From contig NC_017956.1 in assembly GCF_000264455.2 (NCBI RefSeq), forward strand, positions 2,339,501 through 2,403,500: 64,000 nucleotides of DNA, written 5' to 3'. A program made the translations under genes and the position numbers. Source of the DNA: Tistrella mobilis KA081020-065 (GTDB lineage Bacteria; Pseudomonadota; Alphaproteobacteria; Tistrellales; Tistrellaceae). Of this stretch, positions 11,593-34,418 are shown piece after piece. The first letter of the stretch is position 1. Each line of letters begins with the position of its first letter. The notes beneath the pieces were generated by a model that saw only the letters and a program-made list of their open reading frames with translations, ran no database searches and had not been told where the DNA came from.

Positions 11593-11602
11593 GTCCCGTC
11601 AG
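11593..11602. repeat. Target-site duplication, left copy
   Basis: GTCCCGTCAG directly abuts the left inverted repeat of the IS; the identical 10 bases abut the right end at 12844-12853. Confidence 0.9.
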
Positions 11603-11620
11603 CAGGGGAATCGGGTGAAA
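11603..11620. repeat. IS terminal inverted repeat, left
   Basis: 18 bp, 17/18 identical to the complement of the right repeat (the sixth base differs). Confidence 0.88.
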
Positions 11621-11624
11621 GTTT

Positions 11625-12758
11625 TTAAACTGCGATGAGGCTTGCGAGGAAGTCGTCGTCCCAGGCGGCGACCTTGCGTCGGAGGCGTAGGGAGTCCTTT
11701 CCCGGTGCTTGTCGCAGCAGGTTATGTGCCATGTGCTTCAGGGTTGTGAAGTTGGCTGGGGCGTTTTGGGTACGCACCCGGCATTCGTCATCACGGAAGA
11801 CCATATCCATGACCCAGTGGAGACTATTCTCGATGGCCCAATGACTTCTGATGATCGGCCCGACGAGAGCGGCGATGAGCGCCAATGATGTGATGTAGAG
11901 CCGGGTTTCGCTGTCGATTTTGTCGCCGATCCGTCGCGTGCTTTCCACGACGACGATGCTTTTGAGGCCGGGCCAGTCATGTCGCGCCCGGAGCCAGGCG
12001 ACATCATGGATGACGGTGGTCTTGCGGGTTTCGATCCGGCCATGATCGCCGTCGACGGTCTCGTGCTGGCTGATGGTCGTATCCTGGAAGCCCTTGGCCT
12101 GCTGTTCGGCGACGAACAGGGCGACGTCCTCGCGCAGCGATCCTTGATTGCCTTTGAGGGCCAACACGTAATCGGCCTTCTTGTCGGTGATCCTGGCCGC
12201 AATGTCGCGCTGGCATCCCATGGCGTCGATGGTCACGATGGCCCCTTCGATCGCCAGCAGGTCCAATAGCTTGGGAATGGCCACGATCTCGTTCGACTTC
12301 TCGTCCACCTTGACCTGACCCAGCACCAGACGCTGCCGGGCGGCGAAGGCCGAGACCATGTGGATGGGCGCCTTCGCGTCCTTCTTCCCGCCCGAACGCC
12401 GCACGGTCTTGCCATCAATGGCGATCACGCCCTCAGGCGTCCCGGTAACCGACGCCACCCACGACACGAAGCACCGCTGAAAGCTCTCCGCGTCCAGCGA
12501 CGCGAAGATGTCACCCAGCGTGTCGTGCGGCGGCGTGCCATCCGCGAATGGCCGGAAGCGCCGCAGCAGATCGAGCTTCTTTTGGCCAAAGCGCGCGATG
12601 TCCGTGAAGGTCTCCGCTCCCGCCAGCACCGCCAGAAGGCTCAGGAGCAGCACCTCATCAAGCGGATACACAATCTTGCCAGCTTGCCGCCCGTCCGGAA
12701 GCTCCTCAAAATGCTCAAGAAACCCAATCGCTTCGCCCAAGGCCCCACACGGTTCCAT
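11625..12758 (-). CDS. ISAs1-family transposase
   Basis: 377 residues, full length for the family. N-terminal DUF4277/H-repeat-like part (LEHFEELPDGRQAGK, PLDEVLLLSLLAVLAGAE), then the DDE catalytic core: AIDGKTVRRSGG (first Asp), VTIDAMGCQ (second Asp) and SHWAIENSLHWVMDMVF (Glu in the H-W-x-x-E region). The ATG at 12758 has GGGAGG five bases upstream; an in-frame TTG at 12788 would add ten residues. No frameshift or internal stop, so it is likely active. Confidence 0.93.
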   Translation of the reverse strand: MEPCGALGEAIGFLEHFEELPDGRQAGKIVYPLDEVLLLSLLAVLAGAETFTDIARFGQKKLDLLRRFRPFADGTPPHDTLGDIFASLDAESFQRCFVSWVASVTGTPEGVIAIDGKTVRRSGGKKDAKAPIHMVSAFAARQRLVLGQVKVDEKSNEIVAIPKLLDLLAIEGAIVTIDAMGCQRDIAARITDKKADYVLALKGNQGSLREDVALFVAEQQAKGFQDTTISQHETVDGDHGRIETRKTTVIHDVAWLRARHDWPGLKSIVVVESTRRIGDKIDSETRLYITSLALIAALVGPIIRSHWAIENSLHWVMDMVFRDDECRVRTQNAPANFTTLKHMAHNLLRQAPGKDSLRLRRKVAAWDDDFLASLIAV

Positions 12759-12825
12759 CCATCCCTCCCAAGCCAGCAACGTCGACAACGAGAGATTCAG
12801 ACTTTTTCCGTCCTGTCACGCACTG

Positions 12826-12843
12826 TTTCACCCGATTGCCCTG
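12826..12843. repeat. IS terminal inverted repeat, right
   Basis: TTTCACCCGATTGCCCTG, complement of the left repeat with one mismatch. Confidence 0.88.
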
Positions 12844-12853
12844 GTCCCGTCAG
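12844..12853. repeat. Target-site duplication, right copy
   Basis: GTCCCGTCAG, identical to 11593-11602. Confidence 0.9.
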
Positions 12854-12960: not shown

Positions 12961-13416
12961 ATGACGATGACGACGATGACCGCGCGCGTGTCCTGGCTGG
13001 ACGGCATGATGTTCGTGGGCGAAAGCGGCTCGGGACATACGGTGGTGATGGACGGGGCCGCCCAGCATGGCGGCCGCGATCACGGCATCCGGCCGATGGA
13101 GATGCTGCTGCTCGGCATGGGCGGCTGCAGCGCCTTCGATGTCGTCCAGATCCTGAAGAAGGGTCGCCAGCCGATCCAGGGCTGCCGGCTGGAGATCGAA
13201 GGCGACCGCGCCGAGACCGACCCCAAGGTCTATACGAAGATCACCGTGCGCTATGTGGTCTATGGCGACGGACTGGACCCGGCCAAGGTCGACCGGGCGA
13301 TCAAGCTGTCGGCCGAGAAATACTGCTCGGCCTCGATCATGATGGGCAAGACCGCCGACATCGAGCACGTCTTCGAGATACGGCCGGCAGCGGCAGCCCG
13401 CGATGCCGAGGTCTGA
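12961..13416 (+). CDS. OsmC-family protein (YhfA-like)
   Basis: 151 residues. OsmC/Ohr proteins are cytoplasmic Cys-based peroxidases or related redox proteins. Both cysteines are present, one in GMGGCSAFDVV on the central helix and one in EKYCSASIMMGK near the end. The opening TARVSWLDGMMFVGESGSGH matches the YhfA branch, whose biological role is not firmly known. Several in-frame ATG codons occur (12922, 12961, 12967, 12976); 12961 is chosen by family length, without a clear ribosome site. It overlaps the downstream exporter gene by 14 bp. The IS lies upstream, so its native promoter may have been separated. Confidence 0.85.
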   Translation: MTMTTMTARVSWLDGMMFVGESGSGHTVVMDGAAQHGGRDHGIRPMEMLLLGMGGCSAFDVVQILKKGRQPIQGCRLEIEGDRAETDPKVYTKITVRYVVYGDGLDPAKVDRAIKLSAEKYCSASIMMGKTADIEHVFEIRPAAAARDAEV

Positions 13417-14653
13417 CACACCGCCTGAACTGCGTGCAGCGACCGTCGGCAGCCCGGCGGACGGCAGGCCGGGTCGCGACGCGCCGCTCTGGATCCTGGT
13501 GGTCATCACCGCGATCGGGCCGGTGGCGCTCAACCTGTTCGTGCCGTCGATGCCGGCGGCGCAGCGCGGGCTGGGCCTCAGCGATGCCGCGATCCAGCTG
13601 ACCCTCACCCTTTATCTGGTGGCGCTGGCCGGGGCCCAGCTGATCTATGGCCCGGTTTCCGACCGCTTCGGCCGCAAGCCGCCGCTGATCTTCGGCATGC
13701 TGTGCCTGGCGCTGGGCAGTGTCGTCGCGGGTTTTGCCGAAGATGCCGTGCAGCTGGTCAGCGGCCGGGTGCTGCAGGCGATCGGCGGCTGTTCCGGCCT
13801 GGTGCTGGGCCGGGCGATGATCCGCGACCGCCATGATCCGTCCGAGGCGGCGTCGCGGATCGCCACCGTCACGCTCGCCATGATGCTGGCGCCGATGCTG
13901 ACCCCCGCGGTCGGCGGCTATGCCGATCAATGGCTGGGCTGGCGGGCCGGGTTCTGGGTCATCACCTCGATCGCCGCCGCGATCTTCGTGGCGGTGACCC
14001 TGCGCCTGCCCGAAACCCATCACGACCGCCGGCCGATGCCGGGCCTGGCGCCCATGCTGCGCGCCTATCGCGGCCTGCTGGCCGATCGCGGCTTCCTGGG
14101 CCATGCCGGCGCCGCCGGTTTCGGCACCGCCGCCTTCTTCGCCTTCGTCGCCGGCGCGCCCTATGTGATCATCGAACTGATGGGCCGCACCCCGGCGGAA
14201 TTCGGGCTCTGGTATATCGTCGCCTCGGGCGGCTACATGATCGGCAACATCATCACCGCGCGCCTCGCCTCGCGCGTCGGGCCGATGCGCATGCTGGCCG
14301 CGGGCGCGATTGCGGCGGTTGCCGGCTACGGCTCGCTGATCCTGGCGGCCGGCCTGCTGCCGATGGCGCCGATGACCATCTTCCTGCCGATGACCGGCAT
14401 CGCGCTCGCCAACGGCATCATCCTGCCCAATGCCACCGCCCGCGCCCTGGTGGCGGGCGGCACCGGCAATGTCGGTGCGGCGGCCGGGCTGGCCGGGTTT
14501 CTTCAGATGGGCGGCGGCGCCGTCGCCTCTCAGGTGATCGGCTGGACCCGCGCCGACGATGCCTGGCCGCTGGTCTTCGTGCTGGTCGGCTGCGGGGTCG
14601 GCACGCTTCTCTGCACCCGGATCGCCTGGGGCGCAGAGCGCCGCCCCGGATAG
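13403..14653 (+). CDS. MFS drug-resistance transporter, Bcr/CflA type
   Basis: 416 residues with twelve predicted membrane segments. The A-motif between segments 2 and 3 reads GPVSDRFGRKP, and the segment-5 antiporter motif region reads LAPMLTPAVGGY. The cytoplasmic loop DRHDPSEAASRIA is typical of Bcr/CflA (bicyclomycin/chloramphenicol/sulfonamide exporters, DHA1 group). The actual substrate is unknown. The start lies inside the end of the OsmC gene, so the pair is coupled. No plus-strand terminator follows; the hairpin after it faces the other way. Confidence 0.88.
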   Translation: MPRSDTPPELRAATVGSPADGRPGRDAPLWILVVITAIGPVALNLFVPSMPAAQRGLGLSDAAIQLTLTLYLVALAGAQLIYGPVSDRFGRKPPLIFGMLCLALGSVVAGFAEDAVQLVSGRVLQAIGGCSGLVLGRAMIRDRHDPSEAASRIATVTLAMMLAPMLTPAVGGYADQWLGWRAGFWVITSIAAAIFVAVTLRLPETHHDRRPMPGLAPMLRAYRGLLADRGFLGHAGAAGFGTAAFFAFVAGAPYVIIELMGRTPAEFGLWYIVASGGYMIGNIITARLASRVGPMRMLAAGAIAAVAGYGSLILAAGLLPMAPMTIFLPMTGIALANGIILPNATARALVAGGTGNVGAAAGLAGFLQMGGGAVASQVIGWTRADDAWPLVFVLVGCGVGTLLCTRIAWGAERRPG

Positions 14654-14684
14654 GTCCCGCCCCGCACAAAAACCCGATCCACAT

Positions 14685-14722
14685 AAAAAAAGGGACCGCA
14701 CCGAGCCAGAAGGTGCGGTCCC
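14685..14722 (-). terminator. Rho-independent terminator, minus strand
   Basis: GGGACCGCACC (14692-14702) pairs with GGTGCGGTCCC (14712-14722). Read on the minus strand the stem is followed by seven T (14691-14685). No T-tract exists on the plus strand, although the genes on both sides are plus-strand. Confidence 0.85.
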
Positions 14723-14782
14723 CGAAGTGTCGGCCGCGCCGGTGGTCCGGTAGACCGGCGGCGACCGGAGACGTGGGTCACG
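14685..14782 (-). ncRNA. Candidate FNR/FixK-dependent small RNA
   Basis: About 100 nt on the minus strand between an FNR-type box (14817-14830) and an orphan minus-strand terminator. If the box acts at the usual -41.5 position, transcription would begin near 14782. The RNA would start with an unpaired C/U-rich stretch, then a GC stem around ACCGG/CCGGT (14748-14760 region), then the terminator hairpin. That is the layout of oxygen-responsive small RNAs such as FnrS in enterics. No open frame with a ribosome site exists here. The -10 element is not obvious, so the 5' end is a guess. Confidence 0.45.
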
Positions 14783-14816
14783 AGAGACAAGATGCCGTCT
14801 GGCGCGGGTGCCGGCT

Positions 14817-14830
14817 TTGACCTGTATCAA
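14817..14830. promoter_or_regulatory. FNR/FixK-type box
   Basis: TTGACctgtATCAA: thirteen of the fourteen bases fit TTGAT-N4-ATCAA, and it fits the FixK form TTGAC/T-N4-A/GTCAA exactly. It is 143 bp before the patatin-related gene on the plus strand and about 35-40 bp before the proposed small RNA start on the minus strand. Confidence 0.6.
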
Positions 14831-14972
14831 GAACCCGGGACATTCCTGAAAAATTCCGGTCATCCCGCCCCGGGCCGGTCACCGCCGGGCTTGCCGCCCC
14901 TTTCGCACTGCGCGACGATGCAGGCCAGAACAAAGCGCCGCGGCAGAACGGCGCCGGAAGGACCCTGGGGAA

Positions 14973-17297
14973 ATGCGCGAGATCGAACTCAGGCTGGCGG
15001 TCGTCTGCTTCGGCGGCATCTCGCTCGCCGTCTATATTCATGGCGTCACACGCGAACTGGCCGGGCTGGTCAGGGCGTCGGAACGTGTCGGCGCGGCCCG
15101 CCACGGCCGGCCTGAGGGGCGTCTCGACCCGGTCGAACAGGTCTATGCCGGTCTGCTGGCGGATATCGGCCGCGACCGGCCGATCCGGGTGGTGATCGAC
15201 ATCCTGTCCGGCGCCTCGGCCGGCGGCGTCAATGCCGTCACCCTTGCCCGCGCACTCGCCCATGACCTGACGCTGGAGCCCCTGCGCGCGCTCTGGCTGG
15301 ACGGGGCGGATGTCGATGCGCTGACGGCCGAGCGCAACCGCGCCGGCCCGTTTTCCAAGCTGGTGCTGCGGCCTCTGCTACCGATCGCCCGCCGGCTGGC
15401 GCTCGGCCCCTCGGCCGCGGCGGAAGCCGATTTCGCCGAAAAGCTCTCGCGCTTCCTGCGGGCCCGCTGGTTCGAACCGCCTTTCGACGGACCGGGCCTC
15501 GCCGGCCGGTTCTTCGATGCCCTGACCGCCCAGACCCCGGCCGATCCGCATCTGGTCGCCGCCGGTGCGGCGCCATCGCTGATGCCACGGGGCGTGCCGC
15601 TCGATCTGGTCGTCACCGCGACCGATTTCCACGGCCATCCCCGCCGGGTGGCGGTGGGGGACCCGCCCTGGGTGACCGAGCGCGACCACCGCCACCGGCT
15701 AAGTTTCGCCTATCTGCAGGACGGCAGCGGCGTGCGCCGCGACGATTTCGGCCCGGGCAGCCTGCCGGCGCTCGCCTTCGCCATGCGCGCGACATCATCC
15801 TTCCCAGGTGCCTTTCCGCCCGCCCATCTGGCCGAGATCGACGAGGCGCTCGCCGCCCGCGGGCTCGGCTGGCCCGACCGGCAGCGCTTCGTCGCCGGCT
15901 GCTTCGCGGCCCAGGCGCGCGGCGGGGTGGATCCTGAAAAGATCTGGCTGATCGACGGCGCCGTGCTCGACAACAAGCCTTTCGGTGCGGCGATCGAGCG
16001 GATCCCGATCCATCCCGCAAGCCGGCCGGTGGACCGGCGGCTGGTCTATGTCGACCCGCATCCCCGCGACCATCTGGCGCTGGAGAACGGCCATCTGCGC
16101 GCACCGGGCTTCCTGGGGGCGATGAAGGCGGCAATGACCGACATCCCCCGCCACGAGCCGATCCGCGACGAGCTGGAGCACATCGCCGAAGGCAACCGCC
16201 GCGCCATCGAGATTCAGGATGCGCTGAGCCGGACCTGGCGGCGGATCGAGGCCCGGGTCCATGACGTCGCAGGGCCGGCGCTGGACGCCGGATCGGACGC
16301 CGAGGCGGTGGCGATCGCCCGCGAGGCCGGCCACGAGGCCGCGCGTGCCGATGCCGGTTTTACTTATGACGCCTATCTGCGCCTCAAGACCGGCCGCGAG
16401 ATCGAGGCGCTGGCCCTGCTGATCGCCCGCATTTCGGGGCTGGCGGGCGATGATGCCGCACCGCTTGCCGGCACGGCACGGGCCGAGCTGGTCCCCGCGG
16501 TGCGCGCCCTGGCCGAGCGCGACGGGCCGGTCGCCTTCCTTCGCCGCTTCGATGCGGCCTTCGCGGGGCGGCGGCTGCGCTTCCTGCTGCGGGTGGTGAA
16601 CATGATCGCCGATGGCGACAACCCGCCGCCGCCCGACGCCCTCGCCGGCCTGAAAGCCGATCTTTATGCCCTGCTCGCCCGGATCGAGCGCAGCGCCAGC
16701 GGCGGCGGCGAGGCGGCCGCCGGGGTTGCGAGCCTGGCGCCGGAAGAGGCGGCGGGCGAGGTGGCCAAAATGCTGGCGCTGATCGACGCCACCCGGGCAC
16801 TGGACGCGCGGCTGGCGGCGCTGGATGCCGGCAAGGGCTTCGGCCTGATCCACCGCCGCCGGCTGATTGCCGCCCATGTCGGTTTCGCCTGGCTGGACGT
16901 GCTGCTGCTGCCGCTTCTGGACGGCGCCGAACAGGACCCCTCGCAGACCGTGGGCGTGATGCGGATCAGCCCCGACGATGCCCGGCTGCTGGAGCCGGGC
17001 GGCGCCGCCGCCACGCTGAAGGGCATCGGCATGCAGCATTTCGGCGCCTTTTTCAGCCGGGCCTGGCGCGAGAACGACTATCTGTGGGGCCGGCTGCATG
17101 GGGCGGAGCGCATGGTCGACCTGCTGGTCGATGCCGCAACCAGGGCCGGTGTCGCAACGCCCCCCGATCCGGTGCCGGCGAAATGCCGGCTGTTTCGTGC
17201 AATCCTGGAGATGGAAGCCCCCCATCTGCCGCAGGCGGCCGATCTGATCCGCGACCTGCGTATCCGCATCGATCAGATCGAGGACAGCCGCACATGA
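14973..17297 (+). CDS. Large patatin-related protein (patatin domain plus DUF3376-type C-terminus)
   Basis: 774 residues. The N-terminal ~360 form a patatin domain with an atypical oxyanion motif (CFGGISLAVYIHGV near residue 12), nucleophile Ser82 in GASAGG, and Asp in DGAVLDNKPF near 330. The C-terminal ~400 are Ala/Arg-rich helices, as in the bacterial patatin-related proteins of the TIGR03607/DUF3376 class, whose function is not established. No signal peptide. ATG 14973 is preceded by GGGGAA. The stop overlaps the next start (ATGA), so it is co-translated with a methyltransferase gene. Confidence 0.83.
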   Translation: MREIELRLAVVCFGGISLAVYIHGVTRELAGLVRASERVGAARHGRPEGRLDPVEQVYAGLLADIGRDRPIRVVIDILSGASAGGVNAVTLARALAHDLTLEPLRALWLDGADVDALTAERNRAGPFSKLVLRPLLPIARRLALGPSAAAEADFAEKLSRFLRARWFEPPFDGPGLAGRFFDALTAQTPADPHLVAAGAAPSLMPRGVPLDLVVTATDFHGHPRRVAVGDPPWVTERDHRHRLSFAYLQDGSGVRRDDFGPGSLPALAFAMRATSSFPGAFPPAHLAEIDEALAARGLGWPDRQRFVAGCFAAQARGGVDPEKIWLIDGAVLDNKPFGAAIERIPIHPASRPVDRRLVYVDPHPRDHLALENGHLRAPGFLGAMKAAMTDIPRHEPIRDELEHIAEGNRRAIEIQDALSRTWRRIEARVHDVAGPALDAGSDAEAVAIAREAGHEAARADAGFTYDAYLRLKTGREIEALALLIARISGLAGDDAAPLAGTARAELVPAVRALAERDGPVAFLRRFDAAFAGRRLRFLLRVVNMIADGDNPPPPDALAGLKADLYALLARIERSASGGGEAAAGVASLAPEEAAGEVAKMLALIDATRALDARLAALDAGKGFGLIHRRRLIAAHVGFAWLDVLLLPLLDGAEQDPSQTVGVMRISPDDARLLEPGGAAATLKGIGMQHFGAFFSRAWRENDYLWGRLHGAERMVDLLVDAATRAGVATPPDPVPAKCRLFRAILEMEAPHLPQAADLIRDLRIRIDQIEDSRT

Positions 17298-18009: not shown

Positions 18010-18251
18010 CGACGTCGCAAACATTCCCGCGGCACCAGATTGCGCAGCGGGACCCGAATGCCTAAATATCAGGCGACAGCTCGCGCCGGCAGGCGACGCG
18101 CGCCATACCGTGCGGACAGATCCGTCCGGCGGCTGGCTGCGCGGCACCGCCCGTTCACCGGGAGGCCCCGCCAGGGGCACCCGGCAGGGGATGCGGCCCG
18201 CCGGCACGCACGCATGGCTTTGACACGAGAGAGCATGAGGAGCATCGAGCG

Positions 18252-19250
18252 GTGAGCCGGATCCTGTACGACCGTCTGGGCGTCGCGTCGACCGCGAGTG
18301 ATGCCGAGATCAAATCCGCCTATCGCAAACTGGCCAAGAAATATCACCCGGACAGCCGCCCGGGTGACAAGGCGGCCGAAGAGAAATTCAAGCAGATCAG
18401 CGCCGCCTGGCACATCCTGGGCGACCCGGCGCAGCGCAAGCGCTATGACGCGGGCGAGATCGACGAGGAAGGCCGCGAGCGCGTTGCCGCCGGTTTCGGT
18501 GGCGGCGGGTTCGGAGCCGGCGGCTTCGGCGGTGGGCGCAATGCCGGGTTCAGCGGCTTCGAGACCCATTTCGACGGCCGCAATGGCGGCTTCGGCGGCG
18601 GGTTCGCCGACCTGTTCGAGGAAATCCTGGGCGGCCGCGGGCCGCGCGCCGGTGGATTTTCGGACATGGGAGGTGCCGGCATGGGTGGTGCCGGAGGGGG
18701 TGGGCCCGGAAGGGGTGGTCCCGGTATGGGCGGTAGCGTGCCCGACACGGAAGCGCGGATCACCGTCAGCTTCACAGAGGCGGCGCTGGGCGCCACCCGG
18801 CGGATTTCGCTGAGCGGCGCCGGTGAGCTGGACCTGAAGATCCCCGCTGGCGCCACCGACGGCACCAAGCTGCGCCTCCGCGGCAAGGGCCAGGGCGGCG
18901 GCGACCTGATCGTGCGCCTGGAGGTGGCCCCGCACCCGACCTTCCGACGCGAGGGCAACGACATCCATCTGGACCTGCCGGTGACGCTCGCCGAAGCGGT
19001 GCTGGGGGCCAAGGTCGACGTGCCCACCCTGGACGGCCAGGCCCGGATCACCGTGCCGGCCGGCAGCAGCAGCGGCCGCAAGCTACGGTTGAAGGGCAAG
19101 GGCGTGCCGGCCCGCAGCGGCGTGGGCGATCTGTATGTGCATCTGAAGATCGTGCTGCCCGACCAGCCCGACCCGGCGCTTCAGGCAGCGGTCAAGGACT
19201 GGGCCGAGGCCCATCCCCAGCTCGACCCGCGGCGCAACCTCAAGGGCTGA
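18252..19250 (+). CDS. CbpA/DnaJ-type II co-chaperone
   Basis: 332 residues. J-domain at residues 1-70 with the HPD tripeptide (KYHPDSRPGD) that stimulates DnaK. A long Gly/Phe-rich linker (about 75-160) contains many GGGF and MGG repeats. Two beta-sandwich substrate-binding domains follow (LDLKIPAGATDGTKLRLRGKG and ARITVPAGSSSGRKLRLKGKG mark them). The C-x-x-C-x-G-x-G zinc repeats of true DnaJ are missing, which makes it CbpA-like. GTG at 18252 is preceded by GAGGAG about ten bases upstream. It stands alone; no DnaK gene is near. Confidence 0.9.
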   Translation: MSRILYDRLGVASTASDAEIKSAYRKLAKKYHPDSRPGDKAAEEKFKQISAAWHILGDPAQRKRYDAGEIDEEGRERVAAGFGGGGFGAGGFGGGRNAGFSGFETHFDGRNGGFGGGFADLFEEILGGRGPRAGGFSDMGGAGMGGAGGGGPGRGGPGMGGSVPDTEARITVSFTEAALGATRRISLSGAGELDLKIPAGATDGTKLRLRGKGQGGGDLIVRLEVAPHPTFRREGNDIHLDLPVTLAEAVLGAKVDVPTLDGQARITVPAGSSSGRKLRLKGKGVPARSGVGDLYVHLKIVLPDQPDPALQAAVKDWAEAHPQLDPRRNLKG

Positions 19251-32897: not shown

Positions 32898-33197
32898 CCG
32901 GCGCCGGGGCCGGGCCTGTCCCGGCACGACTCTCGGCGTCACGCTCGTGGCGTCGGGCCAGAGAAGGTCGCGGCGGCGCGCCTCCGGAACGTGACGGACC
33001 CATCCAGAAGGTCTGCCGGTCCGATCGAGGCCCTGTCTCCCGCCAAGAGTCCGCACGCGGCGTTCGCGCCCGCGCCCGGCCGGTTCCAGGACCGATGCCG
33101 GCCGGGCCGGACCGGTTGCACGTGACCCGACCTCAACTGTCCCGCGAACGTAATCACCGCCTCAGGCAGAAGACCTCAGGGGAGGAGTTTTCAAGCC
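32898..33197. other. 300-bp spacer between livF and the binding-protein gene
   Basis: No gene, terminator or clear promoter is seen. The last bases hold the ribosome site (AGGGGAGG) of the binding-protein gene. The length leaves room for a separate promoter or an mRNA processing site that would raise expression of the binding protein. Confidence 0.5.
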
Positions 33198-34418
33198 ATG
33201 ACGTTCAAGTTGACCCTCGCAGCCGTCACCGCCGCCGTCGTCGCCGCCTTCTCGGCCGGCGCGGCGCAGGCCCAGATCACCGACAATGTGGTGCGCATCG
33301 GCGTGCTGAACGACCAGTCGGGCATCTATACCGACCTGTCGGGCCCCGGCGGCGTGGATGCGGCCCGGATGGCGATCGAGGATTTCGGCGGCTCCGTCGC
33401 CGGTGCCAAGATCGAGCTGGTCTCGGCCGATCACCAGAACAAGCCCGATATCGGCTCCAACATCGCGAACCAGTGGTATGACCGCGATGGCGTCGATGCG
33501 ATCTTCGACGTGCCCACCTCGTCCGTGGCCCTGGCGGTGCAGAACATCGCCAAGGAAAAGGGCAAGGTGATGATCGACCACGGCGCGGCCACCTCCGACC
33601 TCACCGGCAAGGCCTGCTCGCCCACCGGCATCCACTGGACCTACGACACCTATGCGCTCGCCAACGGCACCGGCCGCGCGCTGGTCGAACAGGGCGCCAA
33701 GAAGTGGTACTTCATCACCGCCGACTATGCCTTCGGCCACGCGCTGGAGCGTGACACCTCCAACGCCGTCACCGCCGCGGGCGGCGAAGTCGTGGGCACC
33801 GTGCGCTCGCCCTTCCCGTCGACCGACTTTTCGTCCTTCCTGCTCCAGGCTCAGGGCTCGGGCGCGGACGTGATCGGCCTGGCCAATGCCGGCGGCGACA
33901 CCGTCAACTCGATCAAGCAGGCGGCCGAATTCGGCATCACCCAGGGCGGCCAGAAGCTGGCCTCGCTGCTGGTCTTCCTGTCCGACGTGCACTCGCTCGG
34001 CCTTGAAGTCTCGCAGGGCCTGGTGCTCACCACCGGCTTCTACTGGGATCTGAACGACGAGACCCGCGCCTTCGCCAAGCGGTTCGGCGAGCGCAATGGC
34101 GGCAAGATGCCGACCATGGTCCAGGCCGGCATCTATTCCTCGGTCACGCACTATCTGAAGGCGGTCGAGGCGACCAAGTCGGATGACGGCAAGACCGTGG
34201 TCGATCAGATGAAGAAGACCCCGGTCAACGACTTCTTCGCCAAGGGCGGCACCATCCGCGAGGACGGCCGCATGGTCCACGACATGTATCTGATGCAGAT
34301 CAAGTCGCCGGCGGAGTCGAAGGGCCCCTACGACTATTACAAGCTGCTCGCCACCATCCCTGGCGACCAGGCCTTCCGTCCGATGGACAAGGGCGAATGC
34401 CCGCTGGTCACGAAGTGA
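33198..34418 (+). CDS. Liv-type ABC transporter substrate-binding protein 1
   Basis: 406 residues. Sec signal of about 25 residues (ends GAAQAQI), then a type I periplasmic binding fold: VRIGVLNDQSGIY at the start, DHQNKPDIGSNIANQWYDRDGV, and ITADYAFGHALE in the second lobe. Members of this branch often bind amides, urea-like compounds or aromatic acids rather than leucine, so the ligand is open. It lies between livF and livH, and a second very similar protein is encoded 4.1 kb downstream. Confidence 0.9.
   Translation: MTFKLTLAAVTAAVVAAFSAGAAQAQITDNVVRIGVLNDQSGIYTDLSGPGGVDAARMAIEDFGGSVAGAKIELVSADHQNKPDIGSNIANQWYDRDGVDAIFDVPTSSVALAVQNIAKEKGKVMIDHGAATSDLTGKACSPTGIHWTYDTYALANGTGRALVEQGAKKWYFITADYAFGHALERDTSNAVTAAGGEVVGTVRSPFPSTDFSSFLLQAQGSGADVIGLANAGGDTVNSIKQAAEFGITQGGQKLASLLVFLSDVHSLGLEVSQGLVLTTGFYWDLNDETRAFAKRFGERNGGKMPTMVQAGIYSSVTHYLKAVEATKSDDGKTVVDQMKKTPVNDFFAKGGTIREDGRMVHDMYLMQIKSPAESKGPYDYYKLLATIPGDQAFRPMDKGECPLVTK

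Follow-up and report, generated by a model that had tools for sequence, protein, structure and literature searches.

A candidate FNR-activated small RNA gene of the Tistrella lineage

Introduction

Small RNAs that are controlled by oxygen have been well worked out in the enterics, where FnrS is made from a stand-alone gene of ca. 100 nt that ends in an intrinsic terminator. In Escherichia coli and other enterics, FnrS is described as being activated by FNR and as repressing mRNAs for functions that are dispensable without oxygen (PMC8139620). In Rhodobacter sphaeroides, ChIP-seq placed FnrL at the putative promoters of two small RNAs, RSs0019 and RSs2461, which that report lists as uncharacterized at the time (PMC4263372). 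PcrZ of the same organism is presented as a small RNA that is induced at low oxygen in dependence on FnrL and PrrA (the FnrL control may be indirect) and that represses photosynthesis genes (PMC8139620). Another relevant group is the alphaR8 family (Rfam RF00519), which includes MmgR of Sinorhizobium meliloti and also SisA-D, described in Caulobacter (PMC12559287).

The locus considered here lies in a 64-kb stretch of DNA (the window; C1:2339501-2403500) from a Tistrella genome of 6.5 Mb in five contigs, of which C1 accounts for 3,919,492 bases. An earlier note on this DNA had proposed an oxygen-responsive small RNA, had likened it to FnrS, and had been aware of no RNA described at the locus. 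The last point agrees with what we found, in that no Rfam family of any kind matched at the gathering threshold anywhere in the window, and the literature that we searched contained no description of a small RNA in Tistrella. The same literature yielded no paper on FNR and small RNAs in anaerobic or microaerobic Rhodospirillales, and none of the matches listed was, from its title and the opening of its abstract, a Tistrella transcriptome study.

The likeness to FnrS stands as far as the arrangement goes, but not as a relationship in sequence, which was found neither by the Rfam search of the window nor in a low-threshold Rfam list for positions 14600-14950, from which the FnrS family is absent. 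The two RNAs also belong to different bacterial classes, and control by ArcA and CRP is a feature of FnrS that forms no part of the control proposed for the Tistrella RNA. RSs0019 and RSs2461 resemble the proposed RNA in being alphaproteobacterial small RNAs with an FNR-type regulator at the promoter; a covariance model of the Tistrella RNA gave no convincing homologue outside the genus among the genomes of the class that were sampled. In contrast to the possibly indirect FnrL control of PcrZ, the Tistrella RNA has a box in the predicted class II position. We think it likely that the locus encodes a stand-alone, minus-strand small RNA that is activated by FNR from that position at low oxygen, that probably depends on Hfq, and that acts in trans. 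Within the literature and Rfam searches made here, the RNA is new; FNR-activated small RNAs, as a functional kind, are already known.

Results

Direct reading of the sequence located both of the elements that the earlier note had reported on the minus strand, namely, an FNR/FixK box and a perfect stem followed by seven T residues (Table 1), and both of the flanking genes are, as had been said, on the opposite strand. When the patatin-like protein was used as a query, we obtained 26 loci at 36 to 53% identity in other genera and none in the genus Tistrella, in a search that may omit own or near records. A tRNA scan of the 64-kb window found no tRNA. Furthermore, the RNA contains no complete reading frame (a GTG frame from 14781 passes through the terminator without a stop), and a coding origin for the conservation described below was therefore ruled out. 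On the plus strand, an ATG frame that crosses the box is continuous with the patatin frame in a congener (G001), but not in the window.

Table 1. Features of the small RNA locus and its neighbors, in coordinates of the window
Feature	Position	Strand	Basis or remarks
FNR/FixK box TTGATACAGGTCAA	14830-14817 (center, 14823.5)	minus (TTGACCTGTATCAA on plus)	Exact consensus match; identical in 3/3 genomes
Conserved promoter block: box plus AT-rich stretch upstream	14812-14857	minus	Unchanged over 46 nt in own genome, G058, and G001
Spacer between box and -10, variable in sequence, constant in length	14798-14811	minus	Substitutions without indel among three genomes
Putative -10 hexamer CATCTT	14789-14794	minus	First base 23 nt past box; conserved in 3 genomes
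Candidate small RNA gene, ca. 98 nt; predicted start 14782 (±2), end in T run	14685-14782	minus	Conservation and fold
Hairpin 1: 13 pairs, loop CUACCGGACC at 14753-14744	14731-14767	minus	Predicted fold
Intrinsic terminator: 11-bp perfect stem, exposed 9-nt loop UUCUGGCUC, T7	14685-14723	minus	Sequence and predicted fold
MFS efflux transporter, Bcr/CflA family; convergent neighbor	13403-14653	plus	ORF list and family searches
Patatin-like protein (TIGR03607, DUF3376); divergent neighbor	14973-17297	plus	ORF list and family searches

Read on the minus strand, the terminator consists of the arm GGGACCGCACC (14722-14712), the loop TTCTGGCTC (14711-14703), the arm GGTGCGGTCCC (14702-14692), and T7 (14691-14685). 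All 11 pairs of the stem are perfect, and there are 12 if the G-U pair 14723/14691 is counted. An automatic terminator scan had missed this stem because it was limited to loops of 3 to 8 nt and the loop here has 9. On the plus strand, A7 precedes the stem and no T run follows it; the intrinsic terminator thus serves the minus strand. From the predicted start and the T run, the RNA would be ca. 98 nt long (14782 to 14685), close to the 100 nt that had been estimated. Positions 14781-14685 fold with a predicted energy of -50.2 kcal/mol (z = -3.87; 1 of 200 shuffled sequences was equally stable), and the predicted fold is most open at the terminator loop UUCUGGCUC, at the linker ACACUUC, and at the hairpin 1 loop.

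There are 19 occurrences of the pattern TTGAYNNNNRTCAA (consensus TTGAY-N4-RTCAA) in the genome, compared to 1 of the reversed control. Family searches showed that other boxes lie upstream of ccoN and of genes for an OmpW protein, a phasin, an alternate-type F1-ATPase beta subunit, and a NarK-like transporter, with the NarK and alternate-ATPase model matches lying below their curated cutoffs; hemN-, universal stress protein-, cytochrome c peroxidase-, cydA-, and dnr-like genes were recognized beside further boxes by eye only. Still other boxes lie within coding sequence and may be chance occurrences. In a set of 12 of the 36 sides of the 18 other boxes (9 boxes), which was chosen by eye after the sequences had been seen and which leaves aside boxes within coding sequence and any side that lacks a clear downstream gene, the A...T signature (-10 positions 2 and 6) was found at an offset of 23 nt on 6 sides, from 5 boxes, and on 2 sides at the next best offset, the 23-nt offset having itself been spotted by eye in these sequences before counting. 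The signature is missing at this offset from the ompW, phasin, cydA-, hemN-, usp-, and peroxidase-like sides, and the mean number of TATAAT matches, a blunter measure, is less sharp for the other boxes (2.33 at offset 23 and 2.17 at offset 21). On the small RNA side, the signature is seen at offset 23 only, within the tested range, a spacing that this box has in common with some of the others. The hexamer itself matches TATAAT at 3 of 6 positions, which is in keeping with an activator-dependent promoter. The class II position of FNR is -41.5, and an offset of 23 nt puts the center of the box at -41.5 for a predicted start at 14782. It is this geometry that gives a start 35 nt past the box, in line with the ca. 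35 bp read by eye in the earlier note.

A box of this kind could look in either direction, being nearly palindromic, and there is a small chance that it works for the patatin-like gene on the plus strand, either exclusively or in addition, and that the minus-strand RNA is unregulated or incidental. Some boxes of the genome do lie between divergent genes (hemN-like/ompW and cydA-like/acyl-CoA ligase-like), and the conserved block reaches 27 nt to the patatin side (14831-14857), where AAAAAT is found 19 to 24 nt past the box. However, the A...T signature stands at the class II offset of 23 nt on the minus side, and at this offset the plus side has ATTCCG (AAAAAT being 4 nt nearer); the patatin gene begins 142 nt from the box, beyond an intergenic stretch that is less conserved (78 to 93% identity per 40-nt bin); and a box devoted to the patatin-like gene would leave unexplained 115 unchanged nucleotides that end in a terminator.

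That run of 115 nucleotides emerged from the alignment of the window genome with another of the same species (G058) and with G001. It extends from the putative -10 to just beyond the terminator (14797-14683), is identical at 115 of 115 positions in 3/3 genomes, and encompasses the RNA (14782-14685), in which 98 of 98 positions are the same in all three. Beyond the terminator, the alignment is scrambled by indels, and above 14857, conservation is lower. Fourfold sites of the adjoining genes are less conserved than the RNA, differing between the window genome and G001 by 21 to 23% (62 of 293 sites in the MFS gene; 72 of 314 in the patatin gene, of which the first 1.5 kb was used); with a divergence of 22% per site, 98 sites would all stay unchanged with a probability of ca. 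3e-11. The 115-nt run is only the 17th longest of the 281 identical runs of at least 40 nt between the window and G001. Of the 16 longer runs, a rough gene call puts 13 wholly within coding sequence; the coding share of the other three is 77%, 56% (18148-18385), and 10% (32948-33226). As for conserved structure in relatives, to which the earlier note had pointed, what we can report is that the sequence is kept in three genomes of the genus; covariation lends the structure no support because the sequence is invariant in all genomes compared.

The pattern of conservation also bears on the idea that the RNA is the processed 3′ end, or the antisense tail, of a longer minus-strand transcript from beyond 14860. 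Minus-strand transcription may occur further upstream, but we regard this origin of the RNA as improbable, given the lower intergenic conservation above 14857, the antisense orientation to the patatin gene that such a transcript would have from 14973 on, and the presence of a well-placed candidate activator promoter directly at the 5′ boundary of the conserved block.

Three roles may be considered for the AT-rich stretch above the box (14831-14857), which is invariant in the three genomes: it may act as an UP element, bind a second regulator, or belong to a promoter of the patatin-like gene. In its upstream half, the conserved block could partly belong to that divergent gene. On the 3′ side of the terminator, G001 carries a short tandem repeat of TTATCCGGACAGGTG-like units (L003, about 1440 to 1500) that is absent from the window.

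A BLAST search of 58 relatives gave matches in 6, two of which were the window genome and one congener. The other matches (6 hits in 4 genomes; a second hit in G001) were 24 to 41 nt long, with E values of 2e-4 to 9e-4, and were taken as chance. A covariance model (R1), made from two identical sequences, matched in 6 of 385 genomes of the class when these were scanned with filters that lose some weak matches; three of the 6 belong to the genus Tistrella and scored 128 bits. The three matches outside the genus (30 to 37 bits) were rejected. One of them (L105) ends in a terminator and has a weak first hairpin, and the other two (L106 and L107) fall within genes that are probably coding; no TTGA-N6-TCAA box was found near any of the three in the 2.5 to 3.1 kb examined. 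With filters of this sort, the 385 sampled genomes of the class contained no convincing homologue outside the genus, and the RNA appears to be restricted to the Tistrella lineage.

The low-threshold Rfam search of 14600-14950 returned three weak matches, RF00519 at an E value of 0.061 and two others at E values of at least 3. The match to RF00519 is the best and runs over the full length (20.1 bits; 21.8 bits and E of 0.023 for G001), and the RNA and this family have in common a two-hairpin layout, a similar terminator stem, and a matching ACUU. Members of the alphaR8 family have a characteristic 10-mer, UUUCCUCCCU, which is present in the alphaR8 copies of the window genome but missing from the RNA, in which there is not even a CCTCC. 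The gathering score of RF00519 is 41, far above that of the RNA. Moreover, L105, an unrelated terminator-ended stretch from another genome, scores 24.3 bits with RF00519 and on the same strand also matches seven further RNA families at 16 to 22 bits, which means that scores near 20 bits carry little weight. True alphaR8 genes are also found elsewhere in the genome, as three tandem copies over the cutoff; one more candidate, at 40.6 bits, narrowly misses it. Membership of the RNA in RF00519 was rejected on account of its score and its lack of the 10-mer, and we consider it the least probable of the alternatives that the RNA is a diverged alphaR8 (MmgR/SisA-D) member that was placed under FNR control. 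The MmgR-type trio lies at G000:C1:743793-744391 (L078) and the fourth candidate at C4:125847; G001 likewise has three over the cutoff and one below.

Candidate regulators are plentiful in the genome, with 22 matches to PF13545, 12 of them over the cutoff. The best of these proteins (C1:2250607) has CX2CX7C near its N terminus, with another cysteine further on, and its recognition helix, judged by eye, is FNR-like. It is also the best against the FnrL model, at 178 bits, which is below the curated cutoff of 300. A second candidate (C1:1068769) carries CQSC, and a third adjoins two boxes, next to the NarK-like gene. The gene for Hfq is present in 2/2 genomes tested. An FNR box was also observed upstream of a phasin gene (L109; G000:C4:923114), which suggests that the low-oxygen response of this organism extends to carbon storage.

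Two partial searches for targets, each in two genomes, gave no enrichment over the control. A 14-mer complementary to the 5′ tail of the RNA, with up to 2 mismatches, had 44 and 36 strand hits (the RNA gene itself being included in each), versus 55 and 40 for the reversed control, and none of the 7 of 80 hits that were read by eye lay at a translation start. The 10-mer complementary to the terminator loop had 14 and 13 hits, versus control counts of 60 and 63. Six of the 14 hits in the window genome (the RNA itself aside) had a conserved partner, and by eye none of these was at a translation start.

Discussion

On the side of the sequence, the proposal of an FNR/FixK-activated small RNA has held up well: the box, its spacing, the -10 offset, the terminator, the logic of the strands, the conservation of just these parts, the FNR-type regulon, and the FnrL-like regulator all agree. 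We envisage that, at low oxygen, an FNR-type iron-sulfur regulator, either the FnrL-like protein encoded at G000:C1:2250607 or a FixK-like paralogue, would bind directly to the box 41.5 bp upstream of the start and recruit RNA polymerase to a promoter that has a poor -10 and no recognizable -35 (class II activation). Transcription would then run from about 14782 to 14685, stopping at the strong hairpin and T7. The resulting RNA of ca. 98 nt would most likely act in trans with Hfq, to which it would presumably bind, and would pair with its targets through one of its open parts, such as the terminator loop UUCUGGCUC or the linker (ACACUUC). By analogy with FnrS, its effect may be to repress mRNAs for aerobic functions that are unwanted at low oxygen.

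One speculative extension, which we would call a long shot, is that the RNA is a genus-specific, FNR-driven riboregulator that arose from the two-hairpin architecture of alphaR8 (MmgR), lost the 10-mer, pairs via the terminator loop and linker, and ties oxygen to carbon storage. The tie to carbon storage is suggested by the FNR box at the phasin gene of the same genome.

The locus is a clean and directly testable case, with a predicted class II FNR promoter in a little-studied lineage. It further suggests that the FNR regulons of this lineage include an RNA arm of independent sequence.

Two other places in the window caught our attention. At 11597-12852, a segment of ca. 1.26 kb with a 387-amino-acid transposase-like ORF (11625-12788, minus strand), which we take to be of an ISAs1-like family, is absent from G001, where the flanks are contiguous; this segment is probably a recent insertion. 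At 32948-33197, ca. 250 nt without an Rfam match are identical in G001 and form the 5′ leader of the gene at 33198, which we named by eye as encoding a substrate-binding protein of a branched-chain amino-acid-type ABC system.
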